DNA of 64,000 nucleotides from Albidovulum sp. (lineage in GTDB: Bacteria > Pseudomonadota > Alphaproteobacteria > Rhodobacterales > Rhodobacteraceae). The stretch lies in assembly GCA_015491895.1 (NCBI GenBank), contig WFVA01000098.1:1-64000 (forward strand), given 5' to 3'. Positions 28,250 to 41,438 of the stretch are shown here, in pieces; positions within the stretch are counted from its first letter, which is position 1; each line of letters begins with the position of its first letter. The position numbers were made by a program, and so were the translations under genes. The notes under the pieces were generated by a model, which saw only the letters and a program-made list of their open reading frames with translations, was not told the origin of the DNA and ran no database searches.

Positions 28250-30178
28250 ATGAGTCACAAGCCCGAAACCCCGCTTCTCGATCGTGTGCACACGCCGGCC
28301 GATCTGCGCACGCTTTCGGACCGCGAGCTTCGCCAGCTCGCCGATGAGCTGCGCAGCGAGACGATTTCAGCCGTTTCCGAAACCGGCGGCCACCTCGGCG
28401 CGGGGCTCGGGGTGGTGGAGCTTACGGTGGCGATCCATGCCGTATTCGATACGCCCCGCGATCGCCTGATCTGGGATGTGAGCCACCAGTGCTACCCCCA
28501 CAAGATCCTCACCGGCCGGCGCGATCGCATCCGCACCCTGCGCCAGAAGGGCGGGCTTTCCGGCTTCACCAAGCGCAGCGAAAGCCCCTACGATCCCTTC
28601 GGCGCGGCGCATAGCTCCACCTCGATCAGCGCCGCGCTCGGCTTTGCCGTGGCGCGTGATCTCGGAGGTGCGGTGGATCCGCCGCTCGGCGATGCGATCG
28701 CGGTGATAGGCGATGGCGCCATGAGCGCCGGCATGGCCTATGAGGCGATGAACAACGCCGGCCACCTGAAGAAACGCCTCTTCGTGATCCTGAATGACAA
28801 CGAGATGTCCATCGCGCCGCCGGTGGGGGCGATGTCGGCCTATCTTTCGCGCCTTTACGCCGGCGAGCCGTTTCAGGAGCTGAAGGCGGCGGCCAAGGGG
28901 GCGGTGAGCCTCCTGCCCGAGCCCTTCCGCGAGGGCGCCAAGCGGGCCAAGGAAATGCTGAAGGGCATGGCCGTGGGCGGCACGCTTTTCGAGGAGCTCG
29001 GCTTTTCCTATGTCGGGCCGATCGATGGCCATGATCTCGATCAGCTTCTGCCGGTGCTGCGCACGGTGCGCGAGCGCGCCACCGGGCCGATGCTCATCCA
29101 TGTGCTGACGAAAAAGGGCAAGGGCTACGCACCCGCCGAGGCCGCTCGCGACAAGGGCCATGGCGTCAGCGCCTTCGATGTGATCACCGGCAAGCAGAAG
29201 AAGGCGGCGAGCAATGCACCGAGCTACACAAAGGTTTTCGCCAAGAGCCTGATCCGCGAGGCCGAGGCGGACGAGAAGATCGTCGCCGTCACCGCCGCGA
29301 TGCCCGATGGCACCGGGCTTAGCCTGTTTGCCGAGCGTTTTCCGAACCGCTGCTTTGATGTGGGGATTGCCGAGCAGCACGCCGTCACTTTCAGCGCGGC
29401 GCTGGCGGCGGGGGGGATGAAGCCCTTCTGCGCGCTCTACAGCACCTTCCTGCAGCGCGGCTACGATCAGGTGGTGCATGACGTGGCGATCCAGCGCCTG
29501 CCGGTGCGTTTTGCCATTGATCGCGCGGGGCTGGTGGGGGCGGATGGCGCCACCCACGCCGGCGCTTTCGATATCGCCTTCCTGTCCAACCTGCCGGGCT
29601 TCATCGTGATGGCCGCGGCGGACGAGGCAGAGCTGGTGCATATGGTGGCGACGGCGGCAGCCATAGACGATCGCCCCAGCGCCTTCCGCTATCCGCGCGG
29701 TGAGGGCGTGGGCGTGGATCTGCCCGAGCGCGGCGTGCCGCTCGAGATCGGCAAGGGGCGGCTCATGCGCGAGGGCGGGCGCGTGGCGCTCCTTTCCTAC
29801 GGCACGCGGCTTGCGGAGGTGTTGAAGGCCGGCGAGGCGCTTGCGGCGCGGGGCATTGCCCCCACGATCGCGGACGCGCGCTTTGCCAAACCGCTCGATC
29901 GCGAGCTGATCCTGCGCCTTGCGCGCGAACACGAAGCCCTCATCACCATCGAGGAAGGCGCCACCGGGGGCTTCGGCAGCCATGTGGCGCAACTGCTGGC
30001 GCAAGAGGGCATCTTCGATCGCGGGCTCAAATTCCGCATGATGGTGCTGCCTGACATCTTCATCGATCAGGCCAGCCAGGCCGATATGTATGAAATTGCC
30101 GGCCTTGATGCCGCCCATATCGAAGCCCGTGCACTGGAGGCGCTGGGGATTGCCGATCTCTCCAGCCGTCGCGCCTGA
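28250..30178 (+). CDS. dxs: 1-deoxy-D-xylulose-5-phosphate synthase
   Basis: Dxs condenses pyruvate and glyceraldehyde-3-phosphate, the entry step of the MEP pathway. The 642-residue product has [18 protein letters not shown] and [14 protein letters not shown], the thiamine-diphosphate motif [18 protein letters not shown] plus N ([11 protein letters not shown]-like), the transketolase pyrimidine-binding region [18 protein letters not shown] and the C-terminal [12 protein letters not shown]. Length is normal. It is the last housekeeping gene before the AT-rich leader of the giant repeat protein; no clear terminator follows. Confidence 0.98.
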
Positions 30179-30388
30179 ATAAAATCATAAACGAAAGATA
30201 TATTCAGACAAAAAAACAACCAAAGATTGCCCCAAGGCCGACCCCTGAAACTTTTTTGCAACAGCAAGCATCGAAAAGCATGGAGGTAACTTTTTTAACG
30301 TATTTTCATCTCAATTTTTCCAGAATGTGAAATATAAGCGCGGCCGATCAGGACTTTTTGCTTTGTTACGAATGTCAAGGTGGCCGCA
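30179..30388 (+). promoter_or_regulatory. AT-rich leader of the DUF11/beta-barrel gene pair
   Basis: My count gives 68 G+C in the 180 bases 30181-30360 (38%), far below the genes on either side. The stretch holds several T6-A6 runs (30211-30216, 30252-30257, 30291-30296). It presumably contains the promoter of the gene pair, but I could not pick out one convincing -35/-10 set. AAGG at 30377-30380 is the likely ribosome site for ATG 30389. Confidence 0.5.
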
Positions 30389-33300
30389 ATGATCCGCATC
30401 GGGTGCAATATACTCCCCTCGAAAAAATTTCAGAACAAATGGGCGCAGCGCATGCTGCAGATATTTGTTTTGCTTATGGCTGCCGGGCTTGGTCTGGCTG
30501 CTCCGGCCAGCGCACAGAATGTGGATTGGCTCGTCAACATTGATGATACGGGTTTTGATCCCACTCCGGCCGGCGGCGATGTGGAATATCTTGTCGAAGT
30601 CGATAACAACGGTTTCGATGCCGCGCCAGCCACGACAATTACCCTGGATGTGCCTGCCGGCGGCGAGCTTGTCAGTGTGGCTGCCGGGCCGTCCGGCAGC
30701 GCGATCACCAATTGCTCGCCCGTACCGGCGACCGGCCCCGCCACCGTGATCTGCGATGTGCCGGCGCTGGCATCGCTTGGGACGGCAAGTGTTGTTGCCA
30801 CGATCCGCACCTCCACCGCCGGGGTGATAGATCTGACAGCGACGGTGCCGGATTCGGCGGGTGGCGTGAATGATGTGCTGCTGGGCAACAACACCCTGAC
30901 CGAACAGACGACCATCGTCGCCGGCTCCGACCTCGGCATCACGCTGACAGTGCCGCCAACCGCCGCTTCGGGCAGTTTTGTCAATTTCGATTTCGAAGTG
31001 GTCAACAACGGCCCGAACGATGCCAATTCCTATGATGTGCAATTCGCCATCCCCACCGGCATCACCAATGTGACAGCCCCGGCAGGATGTTCGCTTTCGG
31101 GCAATGTCTATACCTGCTCGGGCGGGGCGCTGGCACTTGGTGGCACGGCCAGTTTCACCTTTACCGGCCAGGTTTCCGCCGGTGGCGGCTCTACCGTAAC
31201 CGGCGCGGGCAGCGTGCTCAATGCCAACCCGGCTGATCCGGTGAGCGGCAACAATACCGATACCGGCGATATCGCCATCACCGCCGGCACGGATCTGACG
31301 ATCCAGAAGAGCCGCAGCCCCTCGGGCGCGCTTCTGGTGGGCGACAGCGTGTCCTTCACCCTGACCGGCTCCTATACCGGCGACAGCCCGAACAATATCA
31401 CCATCCTCGATACCATCCCCGCCAATTATTCGATCACCTCTATCAACGCACCGGGCTGGGATTGCTCTGCCTCCTCGGGCCAGGATGTGAACTGCGTGCG
31501 CACCTCGGGCTCCGGCGCTGGGTCGAATGTGTCGCTCGGACCGATCACCGTGGTTGCCGATGTGGTTTCCTCGGGCACGCCTGTCAATACCGCCACGATC
31601 GGCGCGGATGGCCCGCCCGACAGCAACCTCGCCAACAACACCGATGACGACGGCGGCGCCACGATCAACGATCCGGTGGTGGACCTGCGCGCCAACAAGT
31701 CCGGCCCCGTTCCGGCGCTGGCGGTTGTCGGCAACAATTACGATTACACCATCAGCACCAGCAACGTGGGCAATGCGCCCTTCTTCGGAACCTCGGTGAT
31801 GGAGGATTTCATTCCCGCCGGGCTGACGGTCAATTCCGCTACCCTCAATGGCTGGAGCTGCTCACCCGCCCTGCCGCTCACAGGCCCAGCCACGCTCACC
31901 TGCACGCGCGTCTATACGGCCGGTTCGCCGCTCAACGCAGGCGCCACCACGCCGGGCGTGGTGCTGCACACCACCGTAACCGCTGCCGGCACCATCTCGA
32001 ACGGCCTGCATGTGAGTTCGCCTGATGCCAATATCGCCGATACCAATCCCGCCAATGACACCATCACCTATGATGTAACGGCGACCGTGGGCGGCGATTC
32101 CGCCGATTTAAGGGCCCTGAAATCGGCTTCCGTCAGCCCCATTCCCGCGGGTGATGTGCAGACATTCACCCTGGAAATCGTCAACGACGGACCCCAGCCT
32201 TCGCAAAACGTGCAGGTGATCGACAATTTCACCAGCCTCATCAACAACAGCGTCGGCGCCACGGGCGCAGGCTATATCGGCGAAAGCGTGAGCGCCGGCG
32301 TGGCTTCGGGCATAAGCTGCTCGACAGCATCATCGGGTGGCACTTCGCGCCGGCTCAGCTGCAACATCGCCACCCTGCCAACCTGCACCGCCGGCACGGA
32401 TTGCCCGGTGATCACGGTGCAGGTGCGCCCCGGCGGCAACGCCGGCGCGCGCACCAATACCTTCAGCGCCATTTCCCAGACAACGCCGGATCCGGACCTC
32501 GCCAACAACAACGCCAGCGCGGGATACAACGTGGAAGCCCGCGCCGATGTGACTGTCACCAAATCCGACAGCCCCGATCCCGCCGCGGCCGGGCAGAACC
32601 TCACCTATATCGTGGCGGCGCGTAATATCGCCAATGGCCTCAGCGCTGCCGATAACGTGACGATCACCGATACGCTGCCGGCCGACCTCACCTTCATCTC
32701 GGCCACGCCTTCGGCCGGGAGTTGCTCCACCGAGCCAGCTGCCTTCAGCACCACCGGCCCCGGCAACAACCAGGTGATCTGCAATCTTGGCACCATTGCA
32801 AATGGCGCTCAGCGCACCGTGACGATTGTCGTACGTCCCAACAACGTTCTGCGCGGCACCCAGATCAGCAACAGCGTGGACGTGACAACCACAACGACCG
32901 AAATCGACACCACCAACAACTCTGCCACCGAAACCACCGACATCATCCAGCCCGATGTGGATATCCTGGTGAACAAGAGCGACAGCGTCGATCCCGTCGC
33001 GGTCGGGGATACCACGGTTTACAGCATTACCGTCACCAACACCGGGCCTTCGGCTTCGGAAAACATCGTGATGACGGATACCCTGCCGACAGCCCACCTC
33101 ACCTATCAGAGCCATACTGTTTCCGGTGCGGGCACCTGCTCCACGGTGCCGGCAGTCGGCTCGCTGGGCGGCACGCTTGTCTGCTCCTGGCCCTATATGG
33201 ATGCCGGGATCACCGAGGAAGTGACCGTGACCATGCAGGGTGTTTCCAAGGGCACGATCCCGAACGATGTCTCGATCACTTCGGACGAGATCGCCGCAGG

Positions 33301-36300
33301 CTTCGATCGTCTTGCCGCGAACAACCAGACATCGGAAACAACCACCGTTCGCACGAAAACCGATGTGGAAGTGGCCAGCAAGACAGCCACGCCCGCCACG
33401 GTGAACCTGAATGACGATTTCATCTTCACCGCCATCGTGCGGGTCAACACCGGGCCGGGGCTCGCGGAAGCGGACAACGTGCAGTTCTCCGACGCCCTGC
33501 CATCCGGCATGGTGCTGACGGGCGCGCCGACGGCAACAGTCACCTCGGGCAGTGCCACATCCACAAGCTGCACCGGCGCCGCGGGCGGCACATCCTTCAC
33601 CTGTGATCTCGGCACCGTCAATGGCGGCAGCGAGGTGAGCATCAACATCCCCGTGGAGGTTGTCTCGGTGAGCGCGGATCCGCAGAGCTTCACCAACACC
33701 GCGAGCGTCACCACCACCTCGCTTGACGTGGATCCCGCAAACAACAGCAATTCGGGCTCGGTAAAAGTCGGCTCCTCCTCGATCGCCGGCACCGTCTATC
33801 GCGATTTCGCCGATGATGGCCTCACGGTCGGTACCGATACAGGCGTGGCCGGCGTGCCGATCACGCTCACGGGCACCTCATTCGATGGCAAGCCCGTAAG
33901 CCTTACGGTGAATACGGATTCGAGCGGCAATTTCCTGTTCCCCTATATCCCGGAAGGCACCTATACGCTGACGCGCGGCACGGTGAGCGAGGCTTACCTT
34001 ACCGATGGTTCGCAGACAGCAGCGGGCAGCGAGGGCGGCTCCGTGACTTCGCCCACGGTGATCGGCTCGATCAATGTGCCGGCCAATACCGATGCCACGG
34101 ATTACCTCTTCCCGGTGATCCCGCAGGCGCGGGTGGGCATCGCCAAGGCCGTGCAGGGCACGCCGGTGATGAACGCCGATGGCTCCTTCAACGCCACCTT
34201 CCGCCTGACGGTCGAGAATTTCAGCCTCGAGCCGCTGATCAACATGACCGTCACCGATCCGCTGACGGGCGCCCTGCCGCTGTTTGGCGCCTATCAGGCG
34301 CTCGGTGATCCGGCGAACGATCCGATGCCAGCGGGCAGCTATACCGTGCTCGCCGCGCCTTCGGGCTCCTGCGGCGGCGCGAATGCGGGTTTCAATGGCG
34401 ATGGCGATACCACCGTGGCCAGCGGCTTCACCCTTGCCAATGGCGCCACCTGCACCATTGATTTCACCCTGCGCATCCGTCCGAACAACCCGGGTGATTC
34501 TTACGAGAACCAGGCCACCGTTACCGGCGAAGGCCAGAACTCCGGCCAGACTTCCGCCACCAATCCCCAGCTGACGGATCTGAGCGATAACGGCGTCAAT
34601 CCCGATCCCAACGGCAACGGGCAGGGCAACGAGGGCGGCGAAAACGATCCCACGCCCGTGGCCCCGAGCTTCGCGCCCGCCATCGCGCTGGTGAAAACGG
34701 CCGATACCTCGGCGCTTTCCTCGCCCCCCGTGGCGGGTGAGGTGATCACCTACAATTTCGCGATTACCAACACCGGTAACGTGACCCTCACCAACGTGAC
34801 CCTCACCGATACGCTTGCAGATATCGTGCTCTCCGGCGGCCCGATCCCGAGCCTCGCACCGGGCGCGACCGACAATACCACTTTCACCGCCACCTACACG
34901 CTGAAGCAATCGGATGTGGATGCCGGCCAGGTGCAGAACCAGGCCACAACCACGGGCACCGATCCCTTCGGCACGGATGTGAGCGATCTTTCCGGCACCA
35001 CAACGGGTGATGACAACCCGCTGGTCACGCCGCTCGGGCAAGGCCCCGCCATCGCGCTGGTGAAAGCCGCCGATACCTCGGCACTTTCCTCGCCCCCTAT
35101 TGCCGGCGAGCAGATCAGCTACAGCTTCACCATCACCAATACCGGCAACGTGACCCTCACCAACGTGACGCTCACGGATACCCTGCCTGACATCGTGATC
35201 TCCGGTGGCCCGATCCCGAGCCTCGCGCCGGGTGCTTCCGACAGCACCACCTACACCGCCACCTATACGCTGAAGCAATCGGATATCGATGCCGGCCAGG
35301 TGCAGAACCAGGCCACCGCCACCGGCACGCCGCCTTCCGGCCCGCCCGTGAGCGATCTTTCCGGCACCACCACGGGGGATGACGATCCTACCGTCACGCC
35401 CCTTGGCCAGAATCCGGCGATCCAGCTGGTGAAGGCCGTCACCAACGAGCCCGATCTGCTGGACGGCACCAATGTGGGCGATCCGGTGAACTACAGCTTC
35501 ACCGTCACCAACACCGGCAATGTGACGCTGAACAACGTGACCGTGACGGACACGCTTCCCGGCATCACCATCAGCGGCGGGCCGATCCCGAGCCTCACGC
35601 CCGGCGCGGTGGACAGCACCACCTACACCGCCACCTATTCGATCACCGCGGCGGATATCGCTGCCGGCGAGATCATCAACAACGCCACGGTGACGGGCCA
35701 TTACGGCCCGGGCAACAGCCTCAGTGTTACCGATGACGACAGCGTGACCGCTACCGTCGGCAAGATCGAGGCGATCCCGGAGGTGTTCCCGCCCTTCACC
35801 ACCGATGGCGGCACCACCACCTCGATGCTGGCTTCGGATCTCCTGAACGGCAATCCGGCCACGCTCGCCTCCGTGGATATCACCGTGATCAACTCCGATC
35901 CGGAAGTGACGCTTGATCCCTCCACCGGGCTGATCACGCTCGCGCCGGGCAATCCGGCGGGCGTTTATACGGTGGAATACCAGATCTGCTCGAAGGACGT
36001 GCCCACGCTTTGCGATACCACCACCGAAACCGTAGTGCAGGGTGCGCTGCCGGCGATCGAAACCACCAAGATGCAGGTGTTCACCGATAACGGCGACGGC
36101 CGTGACGATGTGGGCGACACGGTGACCTATACGATCACCGTTGAAAACACCGGCAACACGGTGCTGAACGGCGTGACGCTGAACGACACGCTTACCGATT
36201 TCAATGGCGCCGCGCTCGCGCTCGACAGCGGCCCCACCTTCGTGAGCGCCTCTGCCGGCTCGCCCGAGGGCACGCTTGAAATCGGAGAAACCGCCACCTA

Positions 36301-37579
36301 CACCGCGACCTTCACGCTCAACCTGCAGGCGGTGAACGCGCATGGTATCCGCAATACGGTCACCGCCACCGGCACGCCCGTATTCCCCCCGGGAGTGCCG
36401 GGCACGCCGACGCCGGTTTCGGATGTGTCCGATGACGGCGACGATACCGACGGCAACGCCAGCGACGACCCGACCGAGCTTGCGCTCTCGCCCTTCGTGC
36501 AGCCGGGTGGCGTGACGATCACGAAAACCACACCGCGCGATGTGGTGAAGCGGGGTGATGTGGTGCCCTATACGATCACCATCACCAACGACAATACCTT
36601 CGTGGTGGGGCCGGCGAATATCGTCGATACCCTGCCGCCGGGCTTTGTCTATGTTCCCGGAAGCGCCACCATCGGAGGCGTTTCGGCGACGGTGAACGTT
36701 ACAGGCGCCGTGATCACCTGGCCGAATGTGACCATTCCGGCCGCGGGCTCCACCACCGTGACGATCGAGGCGCGCATTCTGAATGGCGCGCGCGCAGGTG
36801 AGCATGTGAACCGTGCGAGCCTGATCGATGTGGCCACCGGACAGCCGATCGTGCCGCCGGCCACGGCCACGGTGCGCATCCTGCCCGAAGGCGTGTTCGA
36901 TTGCGGCGATGTGATCGGCAAGGTGTTCAACGACCGCAACGGCAACGGCTATCAGGATCCGGCCGACGAGCCAGGCAATAACCCGGCGATCAGTGATCAG
37001 ACGTATCAGGGCGGCAAGGGCAAGGTCGAGATCGCGCCCGAGAGCTTCGAGCGCCAGCCCGAGGAGGGCATCCCCGGGGTGCGCCTCGTTACCGCCGATG
37101 GCCTCGTGATCACCACCGATGAGCACGGCCGCTTCAGTGTGCCCTGCGCGATGCTGCCGGCCGATCGCGGATCGAATTTCATTCTCAAGCTCGATCCGCG
37201 CTCGCTGCCCTCGGGCTTCCGCGTCACCACCGAGAACCCGCGTGTGGTGCGCCTCACCCCCGGAATGATGAGCGAGCTGAATTTCGGCGCCGCCATCGGC
37301 CCGGTGGTGCGGGTGGATATCAGCGATGCGGCCTTCCTTGCCGATGGCAGCATGAAGCCCGCTCTCAAGGCCGGCCTGCACCGGTTGGCGAAAGCGATCG
37401 CTGCGAAGCCCGGCACCGTGAGGCTCGAGTATCACGTGGCGGCAGATGCCGGGGTGAAGGATGTGAAAGCGGCGCGCAAGCGCATGAAACTCGTGGCAAG
37501 GGAGCTGAAACGCGCCTGGCGCGGCACCGGCAAGGGGCAGCTTCTGATCGAACAGTCCATTGCCCGGGCCGGGAGGTAA
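30389..37579 (+). CDS. Giant secreted DUF11-repeat surface protein
   Basis: A 2396-residue predicted surface or periplasmic protein. The signal peptide has a long N-region and core LQIFVLLMAAGLGLAAPASA, cleaved after ASA at about residue 42. Then come about 14 beta-sandwich units of 110-140 residues with the DUF11 signature, such as YSITVTNTGPSASENIVMTD and TDTLPADLTF, at about 30580, 30920, 31288, 31680, 32103, 32545, 32956, 33360, 34128, 34676, 35045, 35414, 36050 and 36508. Two SdrB/Cna-B-like domains sit at about residues 1128-1200 and 2175-2290 (VFNDRNGNGYQDPADEPG). The last 90 residues resemble a divergent OmpA domain. Start ATG 30389 has AAGG 8 bases upstream; GTG 30380 and ATG 30452 are alternatives. 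It is coupled to the barrel gene that follows. Function unknown; adhesin-like or scaffold role inferred. Confidence 0.9.
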   Translation: MIRIGCNILPSKKFQNKWAQRMLQIFVLLMAAGLGLAAPASAQNVDWLVNIDDTGFDPTPAGGDVEYLVEVDNNGFDAAPATTITLDVPAGGELVSVAAGPSGSAITNCSPVPATGPATVICDVPALASLGTASVVATIRTSTAGVIDLTATVPDSAGGVNDVLLGNNTLTEQTTIVAGSDLGITLTVPPTAASGSFVNFDFEVVNNGPNDANSYDVQFAIPTGITNVTAPAGCSLSGNVYTCSGGALALGGTASFTFTGQVSAGGGSTVTGAGSVLNANPADPVSGNNTDTGDIAITAGTDLTIQKSRSPSGALLVGDSVSFTLTGSYTGDSPNNITILDTIPANYSITSINAPGWDCSASSGQDVNCVRTSGSGAGSNVSLGPITVVADVVSSGTPVNTATIGADGPPDSNLANNTDDDGGATINDPVVDLRANKSGPVPALAVVGNNYDYTISTSNVGNAPFFGTSVMEDFIPAGLTVNSATLNGWSCSPALPLTGPATLTCTRVYTAGSPLNAGATTPGVVLHTTVTAAGTISNGLHVSSPDANIADTNPANDTITYDVTATVGGDSADLRALKSASVSPIPAGDVQTFTLEIVNDGPQPSQNVQVIDNFTSLINNSVGATGAGYIGESVSAGVASGISCSTASSGGTSRRLSCNIATLPTCTAGTDCPVITVQVRPGGNAGARTNTFSAISQTTPDPDLANNNASAGYNVEARADVTVTKSDSPDPAAAGQNLTYIVAARNIANGLSAADNVTITDTLPADLTFISATPSAGSCSTEPAAFSTTGPGNNQVICNLGTIANGAQRTVTIVVRPNNVLRGTQISNSVDVTTTTTEIDTTNNSATETTDIIQPDVDILVNKSDSVDPVAVGDTTVYSITVTNTGPSASENIVMTDTLPTAHLTYQSHTVSGAGTCSTVPAVGSLGGTLVCSWPYMDAGITEEVTVTMQGVSKGTIPNDVSITSDEIAAGFDRLAANNQTSETTTVRTKTDVEVASKTATPATVNLNDDFIFTAIVRVNTGPGLAEADNVQFSDALPSGMVLTGAPTATVTSGSATSTSCTGAAGGTSFTCDLGTVNGGSEVSINIPVEVVSVSADPQSFTNTASVTTTSLDVDPANNSNSGSVKVGSSSIAGTVYRDFADDGLTVGTDTGVAGVPITLTGTSFDGKPVSLTVNTDSSGNFLFPYIPEGTYTLTRGTVSEAYLTDGSQTAAGSEGGSVTSPTVIGSINVPANTDATDYLFPVIPQARVGIAKAVQGTPVMNADGSFNATFRLTVENFSLEPLINMTVTDPLTGALPLFGAYQALGDPANDPMPAGSYTVLAAPSGSCGGANAGFNGDGDTTVASGFTLANGATCTIDFTLRIRPNNPGDSYENQATVTGEGQNSGQTSATNPQLTDLSDNGVNPDPNGNGQGNEGGENDPTPVAPSFAPAIALVKTADTSALSSPPVAGEVITYNFAITNTGNVTLTNVTLTDTLADIVLSGGPIPSLAPGATDNTTFTATYTLKQSDVDAGQVQNQATTTGTDPFGTDVSDLSGTTTGDDNPLVTPLGQGPAIALVKAADTSALSSPPIAGEQISYSFTITNTGNVTLTNVTLTDTLPDIVISGGPIPSLAPGASDSTTYTATYTLKQSDIDAGQVQNQATATGTPPSGPPVSDLSGTTTGDDDPTVTPLGQNPAIQLVKAVTNEPDLLDGTNVGDPVNYSFTVTNTGNVTLNNVTVTDTLPGITISGGPIPSLTPGAVDSTTYTATYSITAADIAAGEIINNATVTGHYGPGNSLSVTDDDSVTATVGKIEAIPEVFPPFTTDGGTTTSMLASDLLNGNPATLASVDITVINSDPEVTLDPSTGLITLAPGNPAGVYTVEYQICSKDVPTLCDTTTETVVQGALPAIETTKMQVFTDNGDGRDDVGDTVTYTITVENTGNTVLNGVTLNDTLTDFNGAALALDSGPTFVSASAGSPEGTLEIGETATYTATFTLNLQAVNAHGIRNTVTATGTPVFPPGVPGTPTPVSDVSDDGDDTDGNASDDPTELALSPFVQPGGVTITKTTPRDVVKRGDVVPYTITITNDNTFVVGPANIVDTLPPGFVYVPGSATIGGVSATVNVTGAVITWPNVTIPAAGSTTVTIEARILNGARAGEHVNRASLIDVATGQPIVPPATATVRILPEGVFDCGDVIGKVFNDRNGNGYQDPADEPGNNPAISDQTYQGGKGKVEIAPESFERQPEEGIPGVRLVTADGLVITTDEHGRFSVPCAMLPADRGSNFILKLDPRSLPSGFRVTTENPRVVRLTPGMMSELNFGAAIGPVVRVDISDAAFLADGSMKPALKAGLHRLAKAIAAKPGTVRLEYHVAADAGVKDVKAARKRMKLVARELKRAWRGTGKGQLLIEQSIARAGR
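34676..35413 (+). repeat. Two tandem 369-base units within the DUF11 gene
   Basis: Units 34676-35044 and 35045-35413 each encode 123 residues starting PAIALVK and ending LVTPLGQ or TVTPLGQ. By hand alignment they differ at about 20 of 123 residues. A third, more diverged copy follows from 35414 (PAIQLVK). Exact equal length in frame points to recent unit duplication. Confidence 0.85.
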
Positions 37580-37583
37580 GGGG

Positions 37584-40500
37584 ATGAAGGTAATGAGCAT
37601 GAAGATGGTATCCGACATGAAAAGCCTCCGCACTCTGCTCCTCGGAGGCACAGCGCTGACCGTCGTCCTCTCGGCCGCTACGGCAAGCGCCGAAACGCGA
37701 CGCTGCGATCAGACGGATCTGCCGATCCCGGCCGAATGTCACCGCTCCAATGCAGGCACGGCCGTCGTGGTGCCGGCAGGCGAGAATGCCGAGCGGGCGG
37801 CAAGGCCCGGCGGTGGTTTCGAAAGCACAGGATTTTCGATCTCGATCGACGATCAGACGATCGCCGGCGCCCCGGCCCCGCGCAACCCCGAGCGCAAGAG
37901 TGATGTTGCCGCCGCTGCCGCGGGTGTGGATATCCGCTACGATGGGCTCGATACCCGCCGGATGCTGAACGTTACCACCGTTGACATGCGCGCCGCCTAT
38001 CGTGCTGGTGAGAGGATCCGTTTCCGCACCTCGATGAACTACCCGGCCTTCGTGAAGCGCGGCGAAGTCCGCATTATCGATCTCGAAAAGCGCGGGCAGC
38101 CGGTGGTCGCCACCATCCCTGCCAGCCCCAACGGCACGGCCGAATGGGTGATGCCTAAGGATGGCTCGGGGCGTTATGCCTATGTGATGCGGGTCTATGA
38201 TCTGAAGGGGCGGTATGATGAAACCATCCCGCTCGAGATCACCCGCACGGAAAAGCACTTCCCCACCCATGCCCAGGTGGGCGCCGCGCCCGTGGCGCCG
38301 GGCGAGGGCGAGGATCGCACGAAGCGGCGCACCATCCCCGTGCGCGGCGGCGTGATCACCGCATCGGGCAGCGGGGCCACGCCCGGTGGCACCGTGCGCG
38401 TGATGGGCGAGCCGGTGCCGGTGGATGGCGCGGGGCGCTTCGTGGTGAGCCGTATCCTGCCCGCCGGCGATCATGTGGTCACGGTGGATGTGAACGGCCG
38501 CCGTATCGTGCGCGATGTGAACATCCCGGCCTCGGAATGGTTCCGCCTCGGCATCGTCGATGTGACGGCCGGCATCCGCGATGATGACGCCGGCAATCGC
38601 GACGACTCTTACGTGGATGGCCGCCTCGCCTTCTACATCAAGGGCAAGACCCAAGCCGGCTATACCATCACCGCTTCGCTCGATACCGGCGAAGGGCCGA
38701 TCGAGGATATCTTCGAGCGCCTCAATGACAAGGATCCCCGCCGGGTGCTTGATCGTCTGCGCGAAGATGGCACCGAGCTTTACCCGACCTATGGTGATGA
38801 CAGCACCTATTTCGATGACACCCCCACAGCGGGGCGCGTCTTCCTGCGGGTGGAAAGCGAAAATCTGCGCTTCACCTGGGGCGATTTCAAGGCCGGGATG
38901 ACGGGCGCGAGCCTCTTGCAGAACACCCGCGATCTTTACGGTGCCGAGCTGCGCTGGCAATCGCGCAATGTCACCAACAATGGTGATCCGCGCTATTCGG
39001 TGGTGGCCTATGCGGCCACGCCCGATACCCTTACCCAGCGCGATATCCTGCGCGGCACGGGGGGCTCGGTCTATTTCCTCACCCGGCAGGATATTACCGG
39101 CGGCTCCGTCACCGTGACGGTGCAGACGGTCGATCCCGAAACTGGCCGCGTAGTTTCCACCCGCACCCTCACCGAAGGCACCGATTTCACCGTGGATCAC
39201 ATCCAGGGTGTGCTGATGCTCACCCATCCGCTGGAATCGGGGGCCGAGGATGGCGGGCTCATCGATGATGGCGGCGCGGATTACGATGTAAATCTCGTGG
39301 CGCAATATGAATACACCCCGAGCAGCACCGAAGTGGACGATACCGCCTGGGGCGGGCGGATCGAGGCCTGGGCCTCCGATCGCCTGCGCTTTGGCGCAAC
39401 GGTGATGCGCGAATCGACCGCCGGCGAAGATCAGAAGATGCACGGCGCCGATCTTCGCTTCCAGATGAGCGAAAAGAGCTATGCCGAGATCGAGTTTGCC
39501 CATACCGAAGGGCCGGGCATCACCCGCTCCACCTCCACCGATGGCGGGCTGACCATCGTTTCTTCCGCCGGCGCGCCCAGCACCGGGGCCAATGCGCTGC
39601 GCTTTGACAGCCGCTTCGATCTTGCCGATCTCGGGCTTTCCCGTGCGGGATTCGTGGGGCTTTACTACGAGCGCAAGGAAGCGGGCTTCTCGACCCTGAC
39701 GGAAGACATCACCGATGATCAGACGCTGATTGGCGCCGAGTTTGAGGTGGTGCTTTCCGAGCGCCTCACCTTCGGCGGCGATGCCGAGCGTTTCGAGAAG
39801 GACAATGGCGACGAGAAAACCGAAGCGGAACTGCGCCTGAAATACGCGCTCAATCCAAAGTGGACGATCGAGGGCGGCCTTCAGTTCACCGACAAGACGA
39901 CGATCGGGGACCCGGCCAGGACGGGCGACCGCACCGATGCAGCGATCCGGCTGACCTACACGCCTTCCGATGATCTGGAGCTTTATGGCTATGCCCAGGG
40001 CACGCTCAGCCGCTCCGGCGGGCTGGATCGCAATGATCGCCTTGGCCTCGGCTTCGATGCGCAGCTGAGCGAAAAGCTGAGCCTGGCGGGCGAGCTTTCC
40101 GACGGCACCGCGGGCGAGGGCGCGTCCCTGCGCCTTGGCTACACGCCCACGGCCGATAACGAGATCTATCTCGGCTACACGCTCGATCCCACGCGCGAAG
40201 GCGCGGGCGGGGATCTCCACGATCGCGGCCGGGTGGTGTTTGGCGGGCGTTATCGCGTGTCCGAAACGCTGACCACCTACAGCGAAACGGTCTATGATCT
40301 GCCCACCAACCAGCGTTCGCTTTCCAATGTGTTCGGTGTGAACTACACCCCGAATTCGGCTTGGACGCTGAGCGGCACGCTTGAGAAGGGGCGGGTGCGC
40401 GATGACGCGAGCGGTGATTTCGATCGCCTGGCGCTTTCCTTCGGCGCCGCTTACAGCCGCAGCGAGAACATGAGCTGGCGGGCGCGCCTCGAATACCGCA

Positions 40501-41165
40501 CCGAGGATGGCGCGGGCACCGCGCGCGATCGCGAAACCTGGGCGCTGACGGCCGGTTACACCAACAAGATCAATGATGACTGGCGCCTTCTCGCCAATGT
40601 TGATGCGTTGATTTCGCAAAGCGCCGAGGGGGATTTCCGCGATGGCGAATATGTGCGCGCATCGCTCGGCTATGCCTATCGGCCCATCGATAACGAGCGC
40701 CTCAACGTGCTGTTCCGCTACACCTACCTGCGCGATCTTCCGGGCGAGGATCAGGTGGGCGCCGACGGCACCACCAACCAGCCCCTGCAGATGAGCAACA
40801 TCCTTTCGGTGAACGCGGCCTACGATCTTTCACCCCGCCTCACGCTGGGTGGCAAGCTCGGCTGGCGTCAGGCGCGCGTGGCTCCGCGCGGCACCACGAA
40901 CTTCACCGACAACACCGCCACCCTCGCCGCCCTGCGGCTTGACTGGCACGTGACTCACAGATGGGACATCATGGGTGAGGCCCGCGTGCTTTTTACGGAT
41001 GAAACCGATACTACAGAAACTGGCGCGCAGATCGCCGTCTATCGCCATCTCAATGCCAATGTGAAGCTTGGCGTGGGTGTTGAATGGGGTTCTGTTTCGG
41101 ACGATCTCGCGGATATAAATTACGATTCGCGGGGGATATTTCTGAATATCGTCGGCAAGTTCTGA
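37584..41165 (+). CDS. Large outer-membrane beta-barrel partner of the DUF11 protein
   Basis: An 1193-residue predicted outer-membrane protein. The signal peptide (LLLGGTALTVVLSAATASA) is followed by a Cys-containing segment, then periplasmic beta-domains (residues about 120-330; for example ERIRFRTSMNYPAFVKRGEV and RILPAGDHVVTVDVNGR). From about residue 340 to the end, alternating polar/apolar strands with short turns dominate (RLTFGGDAERFEKDNG, LELYGYAQGTLSRSG, SEKLSLAGELSD), and the protein ends in Phe (LNIVGKF), the outer-membrane assembly signal. No TonB box or plug domain is evident. The start ATG 37584 has GGGAGG at 37571-37576, overlapping the DUF11 stop, so the two are co-translated. 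Export or anchoring of the DUF11 protein is inference. Confidence 0.85.
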   Translation: MKVMSMKMVSDMKSLRTLLLGGTALTVVLSAATASAETRRCDQTDLPIPAECHRSNAGTAVVVPAGENAERAARPGGGFESTGFSISIDDQTIAGAPAPRNPERKSDVAAAAAGVDIRYDGLDTRRMLNVTTVDMRAAYRAGERIRFRTSMNYPAFVKRGEVRIIDLEKRGQPVVATIPASPNGTAEWVMPKDGSGRYAYVMRVYDLKGRYDETIPLEITRTEKHFPTHAQVGAAPVAPGEGEDRTKRRTIPVRGGVITASGSGATPGGTVRVMGEPVPVDGAGRFVVSRILPAGDHVVTVDVNGRRIVRDVNIPASEWFRLGIVDVTAGIRDDDAGNRDDSYVDGRLAFYIKGKTQAGYTITASLDTGEGPIEDIFERLNDKDPRRVLDRLREDGTELYPTYGDDSTYFDDTPTAGRVFLRVESENLRFTWGDFKAGMTGASLLQNTRDLYGAELRWQSRNVTNNGDPRYSVVAYAATPDTLTQRDILRGTGGSVYFLTRQDITGGSVTVTVQTVDPETGRVVSTRTLTEGTDFTVDHIQGVLMLTHPLESGAEDGGLIDDGGADYDVNLVAQYEYTPSSTEVDDTAWGGRIEAWASDRLRFGATVMRESTAGEDQKMHGADLRFQMSEKSYAEIEFAHTEGPGITRSTSTDGGLTIVSSAGAPSTGANALRFDSRFDLADLGLSRAGFVGLYYERKEAGFSTLTEDITDDQTLIGAEFEVVLSERLTFGGDAERFEKDNGDEKTEAELRLKYALNPKWTIEGGLQFTDKTTIGDPARTGDRTDAAIRLTYTPSDDLELYGYAQGTLSRSGGLDRNDRLGLGFDAQLSEKLSLAGELSDGTAGEGASLRLGYTPTADNEIYLGYTLDPTREGAGGDLHDRGRVVFGGRYRVSETLTTYSETVYDLPTNQRSLSNVFGVNYTPNSAWTLSGTLEKGRVRDDASGDFDRLALSFGAAYSRSENMSWRARLEYRTEDGAGTARDRETWALTAGYTNKINDDWRLLANVDALISQSAEGDFRDGEYVRASLGYAYRPIDNERLNVLFRYTYLRDLPGEDQVGADGTTNQPLQMSNILSVNAAYDLSPRLTLGGKLGWRQARVAPRGTTNFTDNTATLAALRLDWHVTHRWDIMGEARVLFTDETDTTETGAQIAVYRHLNANVKLGVGVEWGSVSDDLADINYDSRGIFLNIVGKF

Positions 41166-41196
41166 TTCCTCCCTGTTAGCGAGTTGGTCGACGATA

Positions 41197-41230
41197 GGAG
41201 CCCGCCGCATGGTGCAATGTGGCGGGCTCC
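41197..41230. terminator. Bidirectional terminator between barrel gene and Trm112-like gene
   Basis: Perfect 10-base stem GGAGCCCGCC (41197-41206) and GGCGGGCTCC (41221-41230) with a 14-base loop containing a further CAT/ATG pairing. It lies 31 bases after the barrel stop and before the convergent Trm112-like stop. The T tract is short on both sides. Confidence 0.75.
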
Positions 41231-41249
41231 CCTTGCCCTGCAGGCCAGA

Positions 41250-41438
41250 TCAATCGAGCTGGCGTGCCTCGTCCACCAGCATGACGGGAATGCCGTTGCG
41301 GATCGGAAAGGCGAGATGCGCGGCCTTGGAAATCAGTTCCTGGCGTTCGGCATCATAGCTCAGGATCGCATGGGTCACCGGGCATACGAGGCTTTCGAGC
41401 ATCCTTGGATCGAACCTGCCGTTTTCCTTTTCAGTCAC
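41250..41438 (-). CDS. Trm112-family zinc-ribbon-like protein (YcaR type)
   Basis: A 62-residue protein with [16 protein letters not shown] and [17 protein letters not shown], the bacterial Trm112/UPF0434 pattern. Only one cysteine of the usual zinc pair is present. In eukaryotes and archaea Trm112 activates methyltransferases; the bacterial role is not well established. It overlaps the gene upstream (Lon-N-like) by 4 bases. Confidence 0.92.

Follow-up and report, generated by a model that had tools for sequence, protein, structure and literature searches.

Two adjacent genes in a 64,000-nucleotide stretch of Albidovulum sp. DNA (assembly GCA_015491895.1, contig WFVA01000098.1, positions 1 to 64,000 of the forward strand; hereafter the window) encode a giant DUF11-repeat protein of 2396 residues (protein 1) and an outer-membrane β-barrel protein of 1193 residues (protein 2). 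Judged from sequence, they probably form a two-gene fibrillar-adhesin system, in which the C-terminal module of protein 1 is docked in, and the protein exported through, the large dedicated barrel. It is a two-gene representative of a family in which single-chain proteins also occur. An original prediction, made from the letters of the window alone, had proposed that the barrel exports, anchors or receives the repeat protein at the cell surface. The dedicated outer-membrane pair stood up to analysis; the choice between the three roles was left undecided by sequence, and C-terminal docking with export is the one that we favour.

The architecture described in that prediction was confirmed. The open reading frame (ORF) at 30380–37579 gives 2396 amino acids (aa) from the ATG at 30389, and that at 37560–41165 gives 1193 aa from the ATG at 37584; the stop codon of gene 1 (37577–37579) and the start codon of gene 2 are separated by 4 nucleotides (nt), and the two genes may be translationally coupled. 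Protein 1 begins with a signal-peptide-like hydrophobic stretch followed by AxA (by eye), and contains 14 DUF11 stretches according to Pfam (E 2.6e-127) as well as to our own profile. Of its two Sdr-type domains, the first (residues 1134–1219) scored below the Pfam cut-off, and the second, an SdrD-like module near residues 2165–2305, was recognised through relatives. Protein 2 gave general barrel matches that are weak but above the cut-offs (Pfam OMP_b-brl, 33.1 bits; DUF481, 27.6 bits), its last residue is Phe, and its AlphaFold2 model, built from nine sequences with a mean predicted local distance difference test (pLDDT) score of 51, shows a ladder of long strands. The pair is flanked by dxs and a thioredoxin gene, and all 13 DUF11 matches of this genome (93.6% complete) map to this locus.

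The existence of similar pairs elsewhere in the alphaproteobacteria, also anticipated, was seen in 35 of 196 genomes of the same order, and pairs occur outside the alphaproteobacteria too. The barrel search matched 37 of the 196 genomes, two of which have just a short, stop-bearing relic. The C-terminal module of the partner, as a 15-row profile searched against the same genomes under the same handles, matched 43 of them: 35 at 200 bits or more, and eight at only 33–40 bits in frames of about 1.9 kaa, which were not counted as carriers. The 35 genomes with a strong module are exactly the 35 with a non-relic barrel. Moreover, barrel and module copies are equal in number per genome (three in G030 and G072, two in G043, G136 and G178), except in G008, which has contig-edge pieces only (one barrel, two module). 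Outside G008 there are 41 long barrel copies, one of them (L109, G072:C39) cut by a contig end, and all have an adjoining DUF11 gene on the same strand, 37 times upstream and four times downstream; by mechanical ORF ends, 35 of the 37 upstream neighbours lie at most 30 nt away or overlap. In the four other genomes (G007, G069, G079, G167) a strong module match lies further downstream, in a frame of about 3500–3620 aa, which indicates that the order of the genes can be reversed without breaking up the pair. In a sample of 289 genomes of the class, seven had the module at more than 100 bits, and all seven had a barrel at more than 400 bits; G362 encodes a fused chain in which the module match is weak, and G251 and G437 have single-chain-type frames.

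Closely related genomes delimit the unit. In G826, whose dxs is 98% identical, dxs and the thioredoxin gene are about 1.1 kb apart: window positions 30205–41247 are missing, with 175 bases instead, and the flanks align at 96% and 94% identity. The site is also empty in G824, of the same genus, where window position 30176 is followed by 41254 (30177–41253 missing), and a diverged pair with a 45% identical barrel lies at another site. G825 carries the pair at the same site, both proteins being 80% identical. The empty sites in two genomes of the genus indicate a mobile or dispensable unit made up of the two genes and the stretch upstream, with no further gene in it, as had been suggested. Barrel matches in G826 (17 bits, two stops), G413 (31 positions) and Thermus (L169, 7 bits) were dropped as relics or chance.

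In some genomes the two proteins are joined in one chain. In L154, from another genome of the class, one open frame cut by a contig end holds DUF11 units, an SdrD-like domain and the full barrel (1105 bits); by eye, the OmpA-like stretch is kept and the signal peptide of the barrel is missing, the junction lying just behind its expected place. L106 (2205 aa) combines DUF11, SdrD_B and barrel in a single chain, and L105 (4545 aa) combines an SdrD-like part with the barrel; our DUF11 profile found no unit in L105, and blastp matched it to the last DUF11 unit of the window protein. Distant relatives (L158–L163, 1614–2417 aa) are likewise single chains, with a weaker barrel core. As the two genes co-occur, adjoin, are lost as a unit, diverge in a correlated manner and are naturally fused, we regard them as a dedicated pair. 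The barrel frame is in two pieces in three loci (L103 6877–10865, L104 649–4636, L157 11914–15635), owing to assembly error, decay or a genuine two-piece barrel.

The part of protein 1 that goes with the barrel appeared to be its C-terminal module, which is present in every pair of the order sample. For many distant partners, the best local match per frame was to the last 340–500 residues of protein 1; for L074, L080, L082, L088 and L096 it lay inside the stalk instead. Barrel and module distances correlated with r 0.834 over 54 pairs (maximum of 5000 permutations, 0.221), and the nearest neighbour was the same in 38 of the 54. This comparison was restricted to pairs with the partner at most 250 nt upstream, an ompa-profile match and a barrel score above 800 bits; it excluded L012 and L062, two copies of one locus, as well as the truncated L109, and retained the near-identical pairs L071/L073 and L081/L083, which inflate the nearest-neighbour agreement. 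In the order sample, complete partner frames are 959–3511 aa long, apart from a possibly broken gene of 727 aa in L097, and the longest open frame has 6526 aa; whereas partner length thus varies several-fold, barrel frames span only 1124–1242 aa, which is most simply read as a stalk of variable length on a constant dock.

That the module, and not the stalk length, goes with the barrel would also suit a barrel that only docks the module, while the stalk takes some other, general path across the outer membrane. Some relatives have OmpA domains of the peptidoglycan type, which serve as anchors, and the available text of PMC12617251 and PMC10952558 describes Gram-negative CLIPPER and CshA-type adhesins as anchored by OmpA. 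However, the pair is gained, lost and fused together, the missing block holds nothing else, and a barrel core of about 870 residues exceeds, in our judgement, the needs of an anchor. We thus consider anchoring alone unlikely.

The topology of the fusions, in which the chain precedes the N-terminal β-domains of the barrel, suggests that the OmpA-like end is periplasmic. If it is, a stalk standing outside must cross through a pore, and since the barrel is the only linked pore, we propose docking and outward passage. Both proteins would enter the periplasm, presumably by Sec, and the β-barrel assembly machinery (BAM) would insert the barrel into the outer membrane. The module (last DUF11 unit, SdrD-like domain and OmpA-like end) would then dock at the periplasmic β-domains and in the lumen of the barrel, and the N-terminal stalk would thread outward through it. 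The DUF11 units would fold outside, where Lys–Asn isopeptide bonds would lock them, and this folding might drive the passage. Finally, the folded OmpA-like end would act as a periplasmic stop, leaving the fibre threaded and anchored with its tip outward, presumably for adhesion. The same placement of the chain on the periplasmic side of the barrel N-terminus, together with OmpA domains in several relatives, would fit a tether or spacer, in which the DUF11 chain remains periplasmic or connects the outer membrane to the cell wall, with the barrel as no more than its membrane end. Such a tether is improbable, as open partner frames of up to 6526 aa are long for the periplasm, and as isopeptide-type stalks and CshA_NR2/GEVED tips are published as traits of exposed fibres.

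Several observations weigh against docking and export through the barrel. Protein 2 looks barrel-like, but its model is of poor quality, so that strand number and lumen size are uncertain. The C-terminal domain of the window protein is OmpA-like by position and predicted topology (β-α-β-α-β in AlphaFold2) alone: sequence comparison failed to show homology, with Pfam OmpA matching none of its 11 members, a profile comparison (hhalign) giving 26% probability over 30 columns, and our ompa profile giving no match in the fusion L154. Shared species history contributes to the correlation between barrel and module. In the class sample, G306 (81% complete) has a module-like match of 91 bits, and G404 and G285 have weak ones (25 and 23 bits), with no barrel match in these three genomes. 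No DUF11 gene neighbours the barrel of G415 or G311 within about 10 kb upstream or 4 kb downstream, and module-bearing genes of these genomes are on different contigs; the two, in the class sample, are the only genomes with separated genes, a separation that we had looked for as evidence against the predicted pair.

Each of these two genomes has one unlinked barrel (L101, L102) and two module-bearing DUF11 genes on other contigs, and the barrel may serve several fibres in trans; in addition, G415 encodes the fused chain L105, and a barrel fragment (L110) lies at a contig edge in G311. As to the OmpA-like end, the single chain L158 reads DUF11, SdrD_B, Pfam OmpA (38.8 bits) and barrel, so that the end of the window protein occupies the same place as a Pfam OmpA domain. 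Such domains were found in relatives on the barrel protein (L099, L112, L147, L151), on the partner (L115) and in the single chain L158. Barrel proteins with two (L099) or three (L147, L151) OmpA stretches could tie the fibre to the cell wall.

Both proteins were scanned with Pfam and NCBIfam at E up to 1, HMMER filters dropping most matches with E above 0.1, and for the barrel these scans gave only general or chance matches. A sequence search of the window barrel against solved structures gave no match at E up to 1; with a 17-row barrel profile, the best match in PDB sequences had E 0.036 over a 32-residue stretch, and SprA was absent at E up to 1. The low-confidence model has 32 strands of at least nine residues at 588–1192 and eleven shorter ones (at least six residues) at 324–574, a provisional number; a strand count from amphipathic periodicity in 54 sequences was too noisy for use. 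In VIA-align, AlgE, SprA, FimD and porins all reached Z 13–14, the model thus resembling large outer-membrane barrels in general. The longest alignment was with SprA: 522 residues over model positions 316–1193, Z 13.6 and root-mean-square deviation (rmsd) 16.6 (overall Z 12.7–13.6, rmsd 12–17, tied in Z with smaller barrels). Foldseek gave query-normalised TM-scores of 0.08–0.20 among the 50 matches listed, and matches such as SlpA, LptD and Cir were not taken as relatives. In the presumed periplasmic part of a cyanobacterial relative (L114), Invasin_D3/Big_1 matched below the cut-offs.

Public annotation calls the barrel a 'TonB-dependent receptor' in seven of 22 plasmid records, as if it were an uptake receptor or porin for which the DUF11 protein captures substrate, and substrate-specific porins and TonB receptors align with the model at Z 12–13.6. 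TonB-dependent receptors have TonB plug and receptor barrel domains; despite the annotation, no family of either kind was among the Pfam and NCBIfam matches at E up to 1, and the cassette is without any further transporter gene, which makes uptake very improbable.

The stalk itself fits a surface fibre of the kind proposed here. By eye, a Lys-Asp-Asn isopeptide triad stands at matching places in 12 of the 14 DUF11 units, the Lys being missing from the first two. DUF11 has been renamed CLIPPER, and a crystallised CLIPPER domain carries this triad, according to the available text of PMC12617251. The last DUF11 unit of the model aligned with 9IFR (Z 12.8, rmsd 2.7, 119 residues), as did many Gram-positive pilins and integrin domains. 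Pfam recognised no adhesive tip domain in the window protein; with no CshA_NR2/GEVED-type tip in it, its adhesion can only be presumed. Such tips were found in two of ten scanned partner N-termini (L156 and L157; CshA_NR2 E 1.9e-37 and 2.6e-36), each partner lying upstream of a barrel gene, which is split in L157.

Table 1. Features of the pair within the window.
Feature	Position	Strand	Basis
A+T-rich intergenic stretch preceding the pair, presumably its promoter region	30179..30388	+	mostly (G826) or wholly (G824) inside the missing block
Giant repeat protein of 2396 aa with 14 DUF11 (CLIPPER) units and a signal-like start	30389..37579	+	ORFs, Pfam, own profile
First SdrD_B-like domain, residues 1134–1219 of the 2399-aa frame	33779..34036	+	Pfam 27.5 bits, slightly below the curated cut-off of 29.7
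369-bp tandem DNA repeat, 2.6 copies, 79% matches; duplicated DUF11/DUF7507 units inside the stalk	34676..35638	+	
C-terminal module: last DUF11 unit, second SdrD-like domain, OmpA-like β-α-β-α-β end	36440..37576	+	relatives, AlphaFold2, profiles
Dedicated outer-membrane β-barrel protein, 1193 aa, C-terminal NIVGKF	37584..41165	+	Pfam, ORF, model
Presumed periplasmic β-domains of the barrel protein, about residues 85–316	37836..38531	+	AlphaFold2 model; relatives
Barrel core, about residues 317–1193, common to fused and more distant relatives; motifs YPTYGDDS and GTGGSVYFLTRQD	38532..41162	+	

The tandem repeat in the stalk gene is a possible site of length change. A promoter scan found no consensus sigma-70 site on the + strand of the upstream stretch; it was near chance (5 vs 3.3) and, like a terminator scan (15 vs 8.2), was not interpreted. 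The two barrel relics of the order sample (G010:C10:12898-13125, 78 residues; G111:C1:284804-284929, 42 residues) are barrel C-termini with one stop each and no strong module match, and represent decay of the pair. The eight genomes with weak matches (G064, G070, G088, G105, G153, G157, G193, G194) have SdrD-type matches; since a like frame, G144:C62, matches the barrel profile and is a single-chain relative, they may hold a second, single-chain family of the order.

Beyond the order, the 17-row barrel profile matched 62 of 398 genomes of a phylum sample and 11 of the 289 of the class sample. The plasmid records, all 22 of which match the barrel, include Sulfitobacter, Roseovarius, Roseivivax, Loktanella, Sinorhizobium, Phyllobacterium, Eleftheria, Vibrio campbellii and Croceibacterium, as well as two partly covered cyanobacteria, and eight named loci of Marinosulfonomonas and other Rhodobacteraceae have similar barrels at 53–72% identity. 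In Kovacikia (L170) and Synechococcus NIES-970 (L114), a DUF11-SdrD gene overlaps the barrel gene. Deinococcus ficus (L168) has the same layout with a barrel match of 45 bits over 86 positions, a lead and not proof. In Acinetobacter haemolyticus (L167), a single chain (barrel 196 and 146 bits) is encoded among a series of small DUF11 genes together with an OmpA gene. The barrel was not found in phages. The family is thus not confined to alphaproteobacteria, but reaches gammaproteobacteria, cyanobacteria and perhaps Deinococcota. More tentatively, the barrel may stand for an undescribed family of giant outer-membrane translocon-anchors, the missing component for DUF11 fibres with OmpA/SdrD ends, separate or fused, in alpha-, beta- and gammaproteobacteria, cyanobacteria and perhaps Deinococcota, a generalisation that we hold to be possible but less than even.

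Runs of small DUF11 genes (about 150–670 aa) lie beside single-chain or two-gene barrels in L158 (639–3912), L159 (680–3409), L160 (1982–4594), L167 (1969–5314), L168 (4606–7142) and L170 (5501–6067). Several of these genes end in an F/Y-R/Q-x-x-V-like last strand, and the runs possibly encode a multi-subunit fibre. Plasmids of Roseovarius sp. THAF9 and Roseivivax spp. THAF40 and THAF197b, strains from polyethylene surfaces, carry barrel genes, which fits attachment and proves nothing.

DUF11/CLIPPER fibres are widespread surface proteins, recently shown to have isopeptide bonds, and their crossing of the outer membrane is explained only by an 'OmpA-like anchor' in the published text available. 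The barrel is probably the missing piece that places this fibre class on the cell surface and holds it; co-inherited, copy-matched, fused and co-lost with its fibre, it is a concrete candidate for the crossing and offers a two-gene test case among harmless bacteria of marine origin. If it exports fibres, it would represent a new single-barrel secretion route, motor-free and two-partner, by which fibres of several thousand residues are exported or threaded and anchored by a periplasmic C-terminal stop. If it only anchors, it would still account for the retention of very long fibres by Gram-negatives. Among the listed matches from open-licence PMC papers, none of the titles and abstract openings described the pair, which is weak evidence of absence.

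The original prediction knew of no described function, and neither Pfam and NCBIfam nor the PDB sequence search gave a match to a characterised secretion family. In two-partner secretion (type Vb), adjacent genes encode a long exported β-rich protein and one dedicated outer-membrane barrel, a layout like that found here; the transporter has POTRA domains and a ShlB/FhaC-type barrel, and the cargo an N-terminal TPS domain. Here, in contrast, the shared module is C-terminal, the barrel core has about 870 residues, and no POTRA/TpsB family was among the Pfam or NCBIfam matches at E up to 1. The same matches included no autotransporter β-domain family, which marks classical and inverse autotransporters. 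Chaperone-usher systems (FimD) combine a barrel of the usher family with a chaperone gene; Pfam gave no usher match, the missing block is the pair only, and FimD aligned with the model at Z 13.6. LapA-type adhesins are retained in an outer-membrane pore, with type I secretion and an N-terminal stop. The principle that we propose to be shared with them is the arrest of export by a folded end in the periplasm, which keeps the fibre threaded; here, however, export to the periplasm would presumably be by Sec, and the stop would be the C-terminal module.

In type 11 secretion (Slam), the barrel is of DUF560 and the cargo ends in an 8-strand barrel domain (PMC12282271, available text); neither window protein has a Pfam DUF560 match, and the cargo end here is SdrD/OmpA-like. 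SprA, the 36-strand type 9 translocon (PMC10994853, available text), is likewise a very large barrel, a resemblance of size only, from which we claim no kinship; unlike the type 9 system, which has PorV/Plug partners and a motor, the cassette has no other gene, and SprA was not among the PDB sequences matched by the barrel profile at E up to 1. The grappling hook proteins GhlA of Litorilinea, with 49 DUF11 domains, and GhpA of Aureispira, said to be a heptamer, share with protein 1 a very long DUF11 chain and form a surface filament, as is proposed here, the grappling hook being a multimer of one such giant chain; GhlA differs in being without a signal peptide, and the available text of PMC13319060 describes no paired barrel for either. 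Like protein 1, the Gram-negative CLIPPER fibrillar adhesins, such as B9T28_05395 of Acinetobacter silvestris, have a DUF11 stalk with Lys-Asp-Asn triads; relatives of the window pair also share the N-terminal CshA_NR2 and GEVED tip and an OmpA-type domain near the C-terminus. The published Acinetobacter layout consists of a CshA_NR2-like tip, a GEVED domain, the CLIPPER stalk and an OmpA-like anchor, and the words 'barrel' and 'outer membrane' are absent from the main text of PMC12617251. Whereas the anchor published there is OmpA-like, the OmpA-like end described here is followed by, or paired with, a large barrel.

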